Shown piece by piece: positions 21,975-25,225 of a stretch of 43,118 nt of DNA (position 1 is the stretch's first letter; every line of letters starts with the position of its first letter). The notes below the pieces were generated by a model. The model saw only the letters and a list, made by a program, of their open reading frames with translations. It made no database searches and was not told where the DNA came from. The DNA comes from Oscillospiraceae bacterium (GTDB lineage: Bacteria > Bacillota > Clostridia > Oscillospirales > Ruminococcaceae): the NCBI GenBank assembly GCA_017465665.1, contig JAFTVU010000012.1, forward strand, positions 1 to 43,118, read 5' to 3'. The position numbers and the translations under genes are program-made.

Positions 21975-22010
21975 AACAACCCGCACGGATCGATGCGGGT
22001 TGTTCTTTTT
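21975..22010 (+). terminator. Terminator after the YabE-like gene
   Basis: An AACAACCCGCA/TGCGGGTTGTT stem followed by CTTTTTT. Confidence 0.9.
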
Positions 22011-22386: not shown

Positions 22387-22415
22387 TTGCGATAAATGCA
22401 GTTTTAAGTTATACT
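22387..22415 (+). promoter_or_regulatory. Likely promoter of the cas operon
   Basis: TTGCGA-N17-TATACT, 28 bases upstream of the cas5 start codon. The match is moderate, suggesting weak or regulated expression. Confidence 0.45.
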
Positions 22416-22443: not shown

Positions 22444-23094
22444 ATGAGATACCGGAACATCATCCAACTGGAAGCAAGCGGCAGATACGCATTGTTCACC
22501 GACCCACTGACGAGAAGCGGCGGCGAAAAATGCTCCTATCCCGTCCCGACCTATGAGGCCCTGAAAGGGATGCTCTCTTCAATATACTGGCTGCCCGATA
22601 TAACATGGATCGTGGATTCGGTACGGATAATGGAGCCCATACGCACCGAATCGCGCTCAGTGGTCACCCGCGGCTATTTCAAACAGGGCTGCGATCTTTC
22701 CATATACACATATCTCACAAATGTACGTTACAGGATAAAAGCTCATTTCGTTCCGCGAAACGGACAAGAGCTGACGCCTGCTGCCGAGCACAGACATTTC
22801 CGCGTTGCTCTGCGAATGCTGGAAAGAGGCGGCAGAAGAGCGGTATATCTGGGCACAAAGGATTGTCCCTGTGATATCAGCCCGTGTGTGTTCTCCTCAG
22901 ACATCGGCCATTATGACAACATCACTGCCGATCTGGGAATGATGTTCCACAGCTTCAGCTACAGCAATGGTGATCTGCCATCGGCCGCACATTATTTCAG
23001 ATGCCGCATGGAAAACGGGATCATCATATTTCCCCAGCCGCACGAATGTGATATCACACAGGTCTGTCGGGAGAGTCACAGTGCATTGGTTTGA
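22444..23094 (+). CDS. cas5c: Type I-C CRISPR protein Cas5c (Cas5d)
   Basis: 216 residues, close to the usual 220-240. In type I-C, Cas5 both caps the crRNA 5' handle and cuts the pre-crRNA, replacing Cas6. PVPTYEALKGML (34-44) and RGGRRAVYLGTKDC (128-141) are family signatures. Tyr37 lies where the catalytic Tyr is expected. The usual Lys-His pair before the RGGRR block reads R117-H118, so the Lys seems changed to Arg (hand alignment). GGAGG precedes the ATG. Its stop lies 11 bases inside the cas8c frame, suggesting coupled translation. Confidence 0.9.
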   Translation: MRYRNIIQLEASGRYALFTDPLTRSGGEKCSYPVPTYEALKGMLSSIYWLPDITWIVDSVRIMEPIRTESRSVVTRGYFKQGCDLSIYTYLTNVRYRIKAHFVPRNGQELTPAAEHRHFRVALRMLERGGRRAVYLGTKDCPCDISPCVFSSDIGHYDNITADLGMMFHSFSYSNGDLPSAAHYFRCRMENGIIIFPQPHECDITQVCRESHSALV

Positions 23095-24217
23095 ACAGCT
23101 TGCCGCTATGTATAATGAGGATGATATCCCTTTATATCACGCGGTAATATATACAGATATCGAGCTTCATCTCAGCTTGGAAGGACGGCTCCTCCGAATA
23201 CGGAACGAGCGTATGCCGACTCTGATCCCTGTGACCGCAGCTTCGCTGCACCGCACCTCAGCCATAGAGCCCCACCCGCTTTCAGATAAGCTGCGTTATA
23301 TGACTAACGACTATTCCAAGCCGCATCATGATGCATATATAAAAGAACTGGTCAGCTGGGCGGATTCAAATTACTCAGATCACAGGCTGTGCGCCGTAAG
23401 AAACTACATGATACGCGGAACTCTTTCATCCGATATATCACACATATCCGCACATCAGGATACCGCAGTGCGCTTTGTAGTGGACGATATGCCGCTCTGG
23501 CAGGACAATGAGCTGATCCGCCTGCATATAGAACGAATGTCCGCACGCGCCGAAAGCTATGGTGTTTGCTGCCTGACAGGGGAATATACTGTTCTCAGCC
23601 GCTGCCATCCCAAGCAGGTCCTTTCTTCATCGGGCAGCGGTAAGCTGATATCCTACGAGCACCGAAGCCGTATCCTGCACCAGGGCAGACACCTCTCGCC
23701 GTTTGATGTGTTTCCGATAGGACAGGAGCTGTCACTCAAGGCTCATACGGTCCTCAGGCGGATAATACACGAAAACGGATTCGCTATCGGCAGCCGCACG
23801 TTTGCCGCATGGGACGGGAGAAGCTCGCTCCCTCTTCCGTTTTCCCTGAAGCTGGTTAAGCCGCAAGGTCAGGTGACCGTGGCAGGCTTCACGGAGGCGA
23901 CCAAGGGCAGAGTTTCCGTAACATTCCTGAGATATGTTTCAGCGGAGTGCTACGCGAGGATCACATTAAAATGGGGTGAGCTCGGAATATCGGTACGAGA
24001 TATCATCGATTACGCATTCGGTCATCACAGCAGGAACGGACTACTCTGTTCCGACAGCCTTTACGGCAGTACCGCGGAGCGTCTGCTGGGCTGCATTATA
24101 GACAACACCGCGTTTCCGTCCGATATAATGCGTGCACTGAACTATAAAGCTCCCCATATCGCGCAGCGGCTCACAGAATACAGTACAGGAGAAAGCTATG
24201 CACAAACAGAATTATAA
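23081..24217 (+). CDS. cas8c: Short type I-C large subunit Cas8c (Csd1) lacking the Cas11-like C-terminus
   Basis: 378 residues from a GTG at 23081 (MHWFEQLAAMYN...), chosen because GGGAGAG lies about 6 bases upstream and this matches the Cas8c N-terminus. Family features: EPHPLSDKLRYM (near 66), CCLTGEYTVLSRCHPKQV, LSLKAHTVLRRIIHENGF and ERLLGCIIDNTAFPSDIMRAL near the end. Typical Cas8c has about 550-620 residues. This one stops just after the last of these blocks, so the C-terminal 150-200 residues, which in type I-C are also made separately as Cas11c by internal translation, are missing. The gene overlaps cas5 by 14 bases and cas7 by 20. Confidence 0.85.
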   Translation: MHWFEQLAAMYNEDDIPLYHAVIYTDIELHLSLEGRLLRIRNERMPTLIPVTAASLHRTSAIEPHPLSDKLRYMTNDYSKPHHDAYIKELVSWADSNYSDHRLCAVRNYMIRGTLSSDISHISAHQDTAVRFVVDDMPLWQDNELIRLHIERMSARAESYGVCCLTGEYTVLSRCHPKQVLSSSGSGKLISYEHRSRILHQGRHLSPFDVFPIGQELSLKAHTVLRRIIHENGFAIGSRTFAAWDGRSSLPLPFSLKLVKPQGQVTVAGFTEATKGRVSVTFLRYVSAECYARITLKWGELGISVRDIIDYAFGHHSRNGLLCSDSLYGSTAERLLGCIIDNTAFPSDIMRALNYKAPHIAQRLTEYSTGESYAQTEL

Positions 24218-25052
24218 GGTAGATTTCATGGGTCTGATATCGGTATCTCACGCCAACCCCAACGGCGATCCGCTGTGCGGCGGCAGACCGCGCATAGATA
24301 GCGCAGGATATGGTCTGATAACCGATGTCTGTCTGAAACGCAAGCTAAGAAACAGGCTGCTGGAGATGAATACTCCCATATTTGTCAGCCCTCCCGATCA
24401 CGATACCGATACACTGGAGCACCGCGCTTCTGAAATATCCTGCACTGATAAGCATGAATATGCACGCGCCGCCTGCAAGCGCTGGTTTGATGTGCGCGGC
24501 TTCGGTCAGTTGTTCTCTTTTGCAGGCAGACGCAGTACTGTAAGTGTGAGAGGGCCTGTTACGATACAGCACGCATTCAGCGTCGATCCCATAGTAATTG
24601 AGGAACTGCCGATCACACGCTGCATAAACAGTTCTTCACCAAAAAAGCGAGCACCCGATACCCTCGGCTTCAGAAGCTATGTGCAGTATGGACTGTATAT
24701 TATGAAAGGCTCGGTCTGCGCCGGTCTCGCAGAAAAAACAGGCTTTTCCGAGCAGGACTGCATAAGGTTCAGAAATGCACTGCTGGATATATTCACAAAC
24801 GACGCAAGCTCTGCCCGTCCCGATGGAAGTATGACGCTGGAACGGCTATACTGGTGGAATCATCATTCCGCCTGCGGAGACTATTCCTCTGCCTCTGTCT
24901 TCAACACCATACATATCAGGAAAAAGGTCGGGATCGATACGCCCATGCGCTTTTCCGATTACGATATAACAGAAACGCACCTGGCAGGGCTTACCCCAAG
25001 AATATTCGCTAATGTCATTCCCGAGCAAGCTCAGGAATGTGGGTCTGAATAA
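24198..25052 (+). CDS. cas7c: Type I-C CRISPR backbone protein Cas7c (Csd2)
   Basis: 284 residues, full length for Cas7c. It forms the filament along the crRNA. Hallmarks: SHANPNGDPLCGGRPRID (17-34), GLITDVCLKRKLRNRL, FDVRGFGQLFSF (97-108), VRGPVTIQHAFSVDPI and a TRCINSS-like loop, then YVQYGLYIMKGSV and GFSEQDCIRFRNAL. GGAGA lies 6 bases before the ATG. The gene begins inside the end of cas8c. A hairpin follows, where cas4-cas1-cas2 would be expected in a complete system. Confidence 0.92.
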   Translation: MHKQNYKVDFMGLISVSHANPNGDPLCGGRPRIDSAGYGLITDVCLKRKLRNRLLEMNTPIFVSPPDHDTDTLEHRASEISCTDKHEYARAACKRWFDVRGFGQLFSFAGRRSTVSVRGPVTIQHAFSVDPIVIEELPITRCINSSSPKKRAPDTLGFRSYVQYGLYIMKGSVCAGLAEKTGFSEQDCIRFRNALLDIFTNDASSARPDGSMTLERLYWWNHHSACGDYSSASVFNTIHIRKKVGIDTPMRFSDYDITETHLAGLTPRIFANVIPEQAQECGSE

Positions 25053-25067
25053 GTTATAAAGAAACAG

Positions 25068-25094
25068 AAAGGCGCATCGTTACGGTGCGCCTTT
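25068..25094 (+). terminator. Hairpin closing the cas operon
   Basis: AAAGGCGCA/TGCGCCTTT with a 9-base loop. There is no long T-run beyond the stem, so it is a weak terminator. Confidence 0.6.
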
Positions 25095-25102
25095 CACCCT
25101 AT

Positions 25103-25144: not shown

Positions 25145-25225
25145 GCACCCATAACAAAAAACAGCACATAGGTTTCGCACCGAGGGGAGGACACCCATGA
25201 CAAAAAACGATGCACAGGCGAAACA
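25145..25225 (+). repeat. Imperfect direct duplication across the start codon
   Basis: A segment of about 35 bases beginning GCACCCATAACAAAAAAC (25145) recurs 45 bases downstream as ACACCCATGACAAAAAAC (25191). The second copy carries the real ATG; the first has ATA at the same place. After a few mismatches both continue with GCACA-x-GG. Confidence 0.55.

Follow-up and report, generated by a model that had tools for sequence, protein, structure and literature searches.

Derivatives of clustered regularly interspaced short palindromic repeats (CRISPR) systems that lack the array or the nuclease are described, in the available parts of PMC8730458 and PMC12669027, from type III and type IV lineages, together with one Streptomyces type I-E derivative. 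Here we analyse a cas5c-cas8c-cas7c block at positions 22444 to 25052 of a 43,118-bp contig from an Oscillospiraceae draft genome (this whole contig is the window). The block descends from type I-C but is not a member of that subtype as defined, since Cas3, Cas1, an array, Cas11 and the processing residues are missing. On balance, we favour the view that it is a domesticated, vertically inherited and non-cutting Cas5-Cas7(-Cas8N) ribonucleoprotein, drawn from the I-C Cascade complex and independent of CRISPR arrays; its role is probably something other than ordinary CRISPR immunity.

Canonical I-C loci run cas3-cas5-cas8-cas7-cas4-cas1-cas2 and carry an array. The block is like them in the Cas5c, Cas8c and Cas7c families and in their order, and differs in having no cas3, adaptation genes, array or Cas11 part, in occupying a separate Cas5/Cas7 branch, and in the loss of the processing pair from those of its relatives that keep a short cas8. 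The literature searched (supplements excluded, papers available in part) contained no mention of this clade or of an I-C core with two genes; the nearest description is of an incomplete I-C system that lacks Cas3 and has Cas8 fused to Cas5, which its authors suggest to be a DNA binder (PMC10910872). Both derive from I-C without Cas3, but the present blocks keep cas5 as a gene of its own, with Cas8 cut short or missing altogether.

Type IV-B systems share the lack of an effector nuclease, of an array at the locus and of adaptation genes. The available part of PMC7937560 describes them as mostly without an array, with a nuclease-free complex whose Cas7-like filament assembles on heterogeneous, non-CRISPR RNA, and as built from Csf proteins akin to type III, with Cas11 also forming a filament and cysH usually present; the portion of PMC8730458 at hand places them on mobile elements. 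The block, by contrast, consists of I-C proteins without the Cas11 part, lies on a chromosomal contig, and has no linked cysH that we could see. HRAMP and ARAMP also combine derivatives of Cas5 and Cas7 without an array and are confined to one group, but they are presented as type III-derived, archaeal and nuclease-associated (PMC8730458 and PMC12669027, both in part), whereas the block is I-C and bacterial, with no linked nuclease common to its loci. The Streptomyces I-E derivative likewise retains effector subunits without cas3, adaptation genes or array; in the same partial account (PMC8730458) it keeps cas6 and cas8 and has a linked STAND NTPase, whereas no such NTPase was seen beside the block. 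By inference, the block would resemble type IV-B, HRAMP or the Streptomyces derivative in its working logic, with descent from I-C.

A type I-C effector core without its partners

The window holds three intact, mutually overlapping genes in the normal type I-C order:

22444..23094, + strand: cas5c, 216 aa; TIGR01876 at 168.5 bits (cut-off 85), also called by Pfam, NCBIfam and PADLOC
23081..24217, + strand: short cas8c, 378 aa; PF09709 positions 16-409 of 559, the N-terminal and middle part without the Cas11-like C-terminal domain
24198..25052, + strand: cas7c, 284 aa; TIGR02589 at 259.6 bits (cut-off 182.25)

Pfam, NCBIfam and PADLOC agree in assigning these proteins to I-C Cas5, Cas8c/Csd1 and Cas7. 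Weaker matches to I-B families are also present, and no match to Csf1, Csf2 or Csf3 was returned by any of the three libraries. The cas8c start is the GTG at 23081, which overlaps the cas5 stop, and the open frame extends back to 22967. Four canonical Cas5c proteins share 44-47% identity with that of the window.

The Pfam match of Cas8c stops at position 409 of 559, and its C-terminal end is therefore missing. The protein scores 84.5 bits, below the NCBIfam full-length cut-off of 218.65, and its 378 aa compare with a median of 634.5 aa (range 488-830) for the longest cas8 open reading frame (ORF) in 70 loci that have cas3, cas5, cas8 and cas7. The Cas11-like part of the D. vulgaris protein is given as Cas8c residues 489-612 in the available text of PMC7684278. 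Four in-frame starts follow codon 200 of the window cas8c, and none of the four has a Shine-Dalgarno-like word; the block thus offers no Cas11c from the C-terminal end of Cas8c, as type I-C does. Split forms of cas8c were also seen elsewhere. The canonical I-C cas8c of Centipeda periodontii (L108, 8077-10001) appears to be split into a 488-aa ORF and a 158-aa ORF that overlap, which may reflect a frameshift or a Cas11c part that became its own gene, and another cas8c (L091) is represented by ORFs of 521 and 63 aa.

The catalytic triad of Cas5c is Tyr46-Lys116-His117 (PMC3652601, in the part available). It is complete in 79 of 79 canonical Cas5c proteins, chosen by ORF length, and in all four proteins from the two-gene blocks described below. 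The Lys-His pair is found in none of the five Cas5c proteins encoded beside a short cas8, which read RH, MH, KY, EA and RC at this place; the alignment of one of them (G006) is gappy at the pair and cut off at the Tyr position. Window Cas5c keeps the Tyr46 equivalent and has Arg-His where type I-C processing uses Lys116-His117.

Purpose-built hidden Markov models run on ORFs of at least 60 aa found no cas3, cas4, cas1 or cas2 on the 43-kb contig, and a k-mer scan found no CRISPR array there. An earlier note on this DNA had claimed three overlapping intact genes in I-C order, a Cas8c without its Cas11-like part, and the absence of cas3, cas4-cas1-cas2 and array, and these claims were all borne out. 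As the contig stops at both ends of the window, losses beyond it could be addressed only genome-wide, in a 155-contig draft (G000) that is 97.9% complete and 8.8% contaminated. This draft contains one Cas5, one Cas8c and one Cas7 match, no Cas1 and no Cas3 match over the cut-off. In a set of 43 genomes of the genus, Cas1 is present in 16. Among the nine genomes that carry a block of the present kind, Cas1 is absent from the eight without a canonical I-C locus, and seven (G000 and six others) have no Cas3 match that passes the cut-off. One of the two remaining Cas3 genes is part of the canonical I-C locus of G020; the other, in G014, shares a contig with distant Cas5 and Cas7 matches and probably belongs to another type I system. 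A full-length cas5-cas8-cas7 set with no cas3 or cas1 detected was also seen on a 5.3-kb contig of Desulfovibrionaceae UBA930 (L139, 1294-4780), where the lack of these genes may be a contig-end effect.

Arrays were sought through the I-C repeat tail, GTGGATTGAAAT. Of 17 loci tried, 16 yielded a repeat consensus, and each of these ends in the tail. This tail, searched as GCGTGGATTGAAAT with one mismatch allowed, replaced an earlier I-C repeat pattern that had no match in canonical G008, G013, G017, G020, G036 and G041. There were 58 matches in G020 and 0-2 scattered one-mismatch matches in each of the other eight block carriers; the counts were 25-95 in canonical G008, G030 and G036, and 4-36 in G031, G033 and G042. 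One further genus genome, without a Cas1 or Cas8c match, has an I-C repeat array of about nine units (G027:C38, 19058-19625; L203), which is perhaps an orphan array.

Nine blocks in one clade

Stripped blocks occur in nine of the 43 genus genomes, those of related, uncultured Clostridia, five with a short cas8 and four with cas5 and cas7 only. The earlier note had looked to relatives for the same three-gene block. This part stood for four further loci, found by Cas8c search, whose short Cas8c proteins are 38-43% identical to that of the window; each adjoins cas5 and, where the contig reaches, cas7 (beyond the contig end in one), and no other cas genes lie in the fetched flanks of these four. 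It did not stand for the other four (G014, G019, G020 and G021), found by Cas7 search, in which cas5 and cas7 are adjacent with no cas8 between them. Cas8c has no match in G014, G019 and G021, and the only one in G020 is full length; G020 carries, besides its two-gene block on contig L073, a separate complete canonical I-C locus with arrays. The complete Cas8 proteins of the clade measure 398, 378, 334 and 315 aa, Cas8 being absent in four species, and the Pfam match ends at position 271 of 559 in G005 and G006.

All gene parts seen are open frames, and a TAA counted in G006 and G007 precedes the point where cas8 begins. Truncation by a contig end affects cas5 in G006, cas8 in G009 (where cas7 is not seen) and cas7 in G019. 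The G020 contig stops 170 bp past cas7, and two near-identical copies of about 60 nt lie at this end directly after the gene (L073, 10530-10689); they perhaps represent an interspersed repeat at which the assembly failed. The four two-gene blocks all lie directly downstream of the same Mur-ligase gene. Short-cas8 blocks occupy differing sites, with nearby genes in common between G005 and G007.

Trees were built from 55 Cas7 and 56 Cas5 rows, the canonical set being 40 sequences drawn at random plus seven from the genus. The stripped blocks split from these 47 canonical sequences with support of 100/100 for Cas7 and 100/99 for Cas5. Both trees recover the two-gene set as a group (100/99 and 97/96). 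For the short-cas8 set, Cas7 gives no resolved group (24% of bootstraps) and Cas5 a weakly supported one (90/39). As a species tree we used the Mur-ligase gene (Pfam), which has a single match in 42 of the 43 genomes and none in G023. Here the nine block carriers form one clade (100/98), with the block in 9 of 9 members and in none of the 33 others, and the two-gene and short-cas8 species are sister groups (100/99 and 100/100). The presence of a stripped block requires one change on this tree, compared with a mean of 8.3 in 500 shuffles, none of which was as low. Canonical I-C, present in nine genomes with G020 counted with the clade, requires eight changes, no better than shuffles. No cas remnant was found by tblastn beside the Mur-ligase gene in 26 other genomes, some of whose flanks are cut by contig ends. 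These phylogenies suggest that the block has probably been passed on vertically from species to species.

The ratio of nonsynonymous to synonymous substitution rates (dN/dS, NG86 method) is 0.17-0.50 for cas5 (10 pairs), 0.13-0.27 for cas7 (11 pairs) and 0.08-0.22 for two neighbour genes (6 pairs), all rough values with dS mostly above 1; the closest pair, G019 and G020, gives 0.19 for cas5 and 0.13 for cas7. YN00 returned values for 3 of 30 pairs, and NG86 gave no dS for three. Divergence is greatest at third codon positions. The nine species are 31-75% identical, and between two-gene species cas5 and cas7 share 46-73% identity compared with 62-90% for their neighbours, so the cas genes evolve faster. 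Most columns that are invariant in canonical proteins are retained. Across 82 canonical Cas7c proteins, 82 columns show at least 95% invariance, and window Cas7 keeps 67 of them; window Cas5 keeps 43 of 58. Retention is lowest in G021 (Cas7 52/82, Cas5 38/58) and in Cas5 of G006 (22/42).

The earlier note had argued for a distinct, non-cutting system and against a dying remnant, and this is supported by cas3-less blocks with open frames across a nine-species clade. Of the two findings that it had named as refuting, frame decay was not seen in the related loci, and draft G000 has no Cas3 over the cut-off, no Cas1 and no I-C repeat cluster. Broken I-C loci do occur nearby in the genus: G037 has a 466-aa piece of cas3 followed by a 61-aa cas7 tail (L196, 3252-4713).

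Flanking signals and wider searches

Further features of the window around the block are:

21975..22004, + strand: terminator-like hairpin after the upstream G5/3D-domain gene, the upstream boundary of the block
22387..22415, + strand: sigma-70-like promoter TTGCGA-17-TATACT, 28 nt upstream of cas5c, with 9 of 12 matches
25043..25095, + strand: candidate 3' RNA element with the AATAAGTTAT motif, an A-rich stretch and a 12-bp hairpin GAA...UUC, overlapping the cas7c end

The downstream neighbour is an unrelated gene at 25197. Of 19 window proteins scanned against Pfam, the three Cas proteins included, the rest of those with a match are ordinary chromosomal products (such as RsgA, an E1-E2 ATPase and fucose isomerase). 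No transposase is among these 19, which include the neighbours on both sides; I-C CRISPR-associated transposons would have Tn7-like transposition genes beside the effector. The promoter is weak taken alone, with six such sites in the region compared with 3.9 (sd 2.0) in shuffles, and another scan favoured a different 9/12 site, TTGTCA-17-TTTAAG. A TATAAT hexamer lies upstream of cas5 in seven sister loci; promoter scores exceed shuffles in the four two-gene loci only, and the short-cas8 loci do not rise above them (0.16-0.44). The word TGCACAAA is common to five of eight upstream regions of clade loci (as high in 5 of 200 shuffles), and GTTTCAAC-like sites recur near -150 upstream of cas5 in several of the eight; both were set aside as upstream signals, being barely above shuffles. 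RNAalifold found little in the upstream regions of the two-gene blocks.

The 3' element recurs at the cas7 end in G005 and G007 as well as in the window, at 52-53 nt with a 12-13-bp hairpin (the two copies beside that of the window lie at L023 8377-8429, - strand, and L024 11496-11547). Each of the three sequences folds far better than shuffles (z of -4.9 to -6.6), and in 4 of the 10 base pairs counted both partners differ, with five measures reached by 3 to 24 of 500 shuffles. A model built from these sequences (R1) matches them by construction (67-72 bits) and found no other strong match in 579 kb from 36 sources, the next being 27 bits, on the reverse strand of one of the three, and then 21. 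A 10-mer common to all members occurs in 1 of 200,000 random triples, a test made after the motif was seen; in the window and in G005 the 10-mer of the element extends across part of the cas7 stop. Percent identities of the element are uninformative because gap costs were lenient. It was not found in G006, and G014 has a faint R1 match after cas7 (19 bits). The plain reading is a transcription terminator, which would leave the missing long T-run and the invariant motif unexplained; we also take the element as a lead on the RNA of the complex. The upstream side showed no array-like repeat and no Rfam match that would indicate a guide RNA.

Beyond the genus, 396 genomes of the family were searched with Cas7 and Cas8, and score alone failed to set divergent members apart, G021 falling within the canonical range. 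By-eye comparison of the matches listed led us to fetch genomes with a Cas7 but no Cas8 match (G234, G279, G389) or with short Cas8 frames (G041, G215, G350); short Cas8 fragments are also present in G091, G259 and G341. None of the six fetched proved to have a stripped block: G041, G234 and G350 are canonical loci cut by contig ends, G215 is a canonical locus with several broken genes, and in G279 and G389, which belong to different genera of this family, a cas7 of canonical type stands by itself (L263, 3229-4399, with a 77-aa cas8 piece, and L262, 462-1163), probably I-C remnants. Among 394 genomes of the order, no additional Cas7 stood out at E 1e-90, in a search in which score may again not separate divergent members. 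In a scan of 84,980 species that kept 80 of 191 relatives, using two peptide patterns that would miss divergent two-gene Cas7, the stripped architecture appeared only in L063, L064, L065 and L073, which are contigs of G005, G007, G006 and G020. A mobile origin was rejected, as scans with Cas7 and Cas8 alignments found no relative in viral contigs. Fifty-nine plasmid records have a Cas7 match, all below 60% identity, and the eight of them that were listed are annotated as I-C cas7c; four unannotated faecal phage records have a Cas7-like stretch at 28-37% identity.

What the block may do

Common to all nine blocks are Cas5 and, where seen, Cas7, which points to an RNA-holding core. Cas8 is the sensor of the protospacer-adjacent motif (PAM) and of DNA. 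Because its remnant is gone in four species, RNA binding would be the sole function left to all nine. In the domesticated ribonucleoprotein that we favour, Cas7 would polymerise on RNA and be capped by Cas5, much as the Cas5c-Cas7-CRISPR RNA (crRNA) complex of D. vulgaris is stable without Cas8c and Cas11c (available part of PMC7684278). This RNA would be cellular or operon-encoded, judging by the missing array. Without Cas3 the complex would act by binding and not by DNA degradation, in regulation, in RNA sequestration or as a defence sensor; the remaining N-terminal part of Cas8 may touch DNA or dock a partner, and an unlinked nuclease may help.

Several points weigh against this reading. 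A single common mechanism is an assumption, as Cas8 is not conserved across the clade, and no accessory gene is common to the flanks compared, which gives no hint of an output. The two-gene block of G020 could use crRNAs from the complete I-C locus of that genome. The array test covers the I-C repeat tail only, and it missed the arrays of canonical G013, G017 and G041 (0-2 matches). The Cas5 and Cas7 trees are midpoint-rooted, with the clade proteins flagged as long branches, and the species tree comes from a single gene that is itself next to the two-gene blocks. Saturation of dS limits the dN/dS values, and the highest cas5 ratios, 0.41 and 0.50, come from pairs with G021 and leave room for relaxed constraint. 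Every one of the nine genomes is a draft, G005, G006, G009 and G014 being less than 90% complete and G000 contaminated to the extent given above.

A more specific form can be put forward only tentatively: a filament of Cas5 and Cas7, whether or not a Cas8 remnant is present, may be an array-free housekeeping ribonucleoprotein fixed in the clade, the short-cas8 branch perhaps using, in place of crRNA, the AATAAGTTAT-hairpin RNA made at the 3' end of the operon itself.

A part in defence or counter-defence is unlikely, whether the block would draw off anti-CRISPRs or Racr RNAs as a decoy or act as a sensor with an unlinked effector. Phage Racr RNAs sequester Cascade subunits (PMC10651486, available in part), the Streptomyces cas5-cas6-cas7-cas8 module adjoins its STAND NTPase, and fast evolution of cas5 and cas7 would fit an arms race; but no effector gene is common to the flanks compared, the seven genomes with neither Cas1 nor Cas3 over the cut-off leave a decoy little CRISPR to protect, and the block is retained without any loss seen, unlike the patchy canonical I-C.

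We regard as decidedly improbable a Cas3-less interference or silencing complex that uses crRNAs of other arrays in trans. Subtype III-G, for which no array was found, is thought to recruit crRNAs in this way (PMC12669027, in part), G020 has I-C arrays and G014 another Cas3 locus, and the two-gene Cas5c proteins keep Tyr-Lys-His. Eight of the nine genomes, however, have neither Cas1 nor an I-C repeat cluster, the processing pair is lost from all five short-cas8 Cas5c proteins, and the two-gene blocks lack the Cas8 that would recognise a PAM; with G020 as the exception, the suggestion of the earlier note that crRNAs may be borrowed from another locus is not supported.

Least probable is a decaying I-C remnant whose frames are open by chance, for although the losses of cas3, adaptation genes, array, Cas11 and, in four species, Cas8 resemble erosion, as do the faster cas5 and cas7, the lost Lys-His pair of the short-cas8 branch and the low column retention in G021, every gene seen is open apart from contig-end cuts in nine species at such divergence, every sampled clade member has the block, third codon positions diverge most, and the remnants in G037, G279 and G389 are visibly broken.

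If the array-independent ribonucleoprotein is the true account, this clade would provide a type I-C case in which the stages stand side by side, from full I-C through the short-cas8 form to the two-gene form, and a function of Cas5-Cas7 without CRISPR would become testable with two genes, such a core being kept by nine of nine sampled species of the clade.

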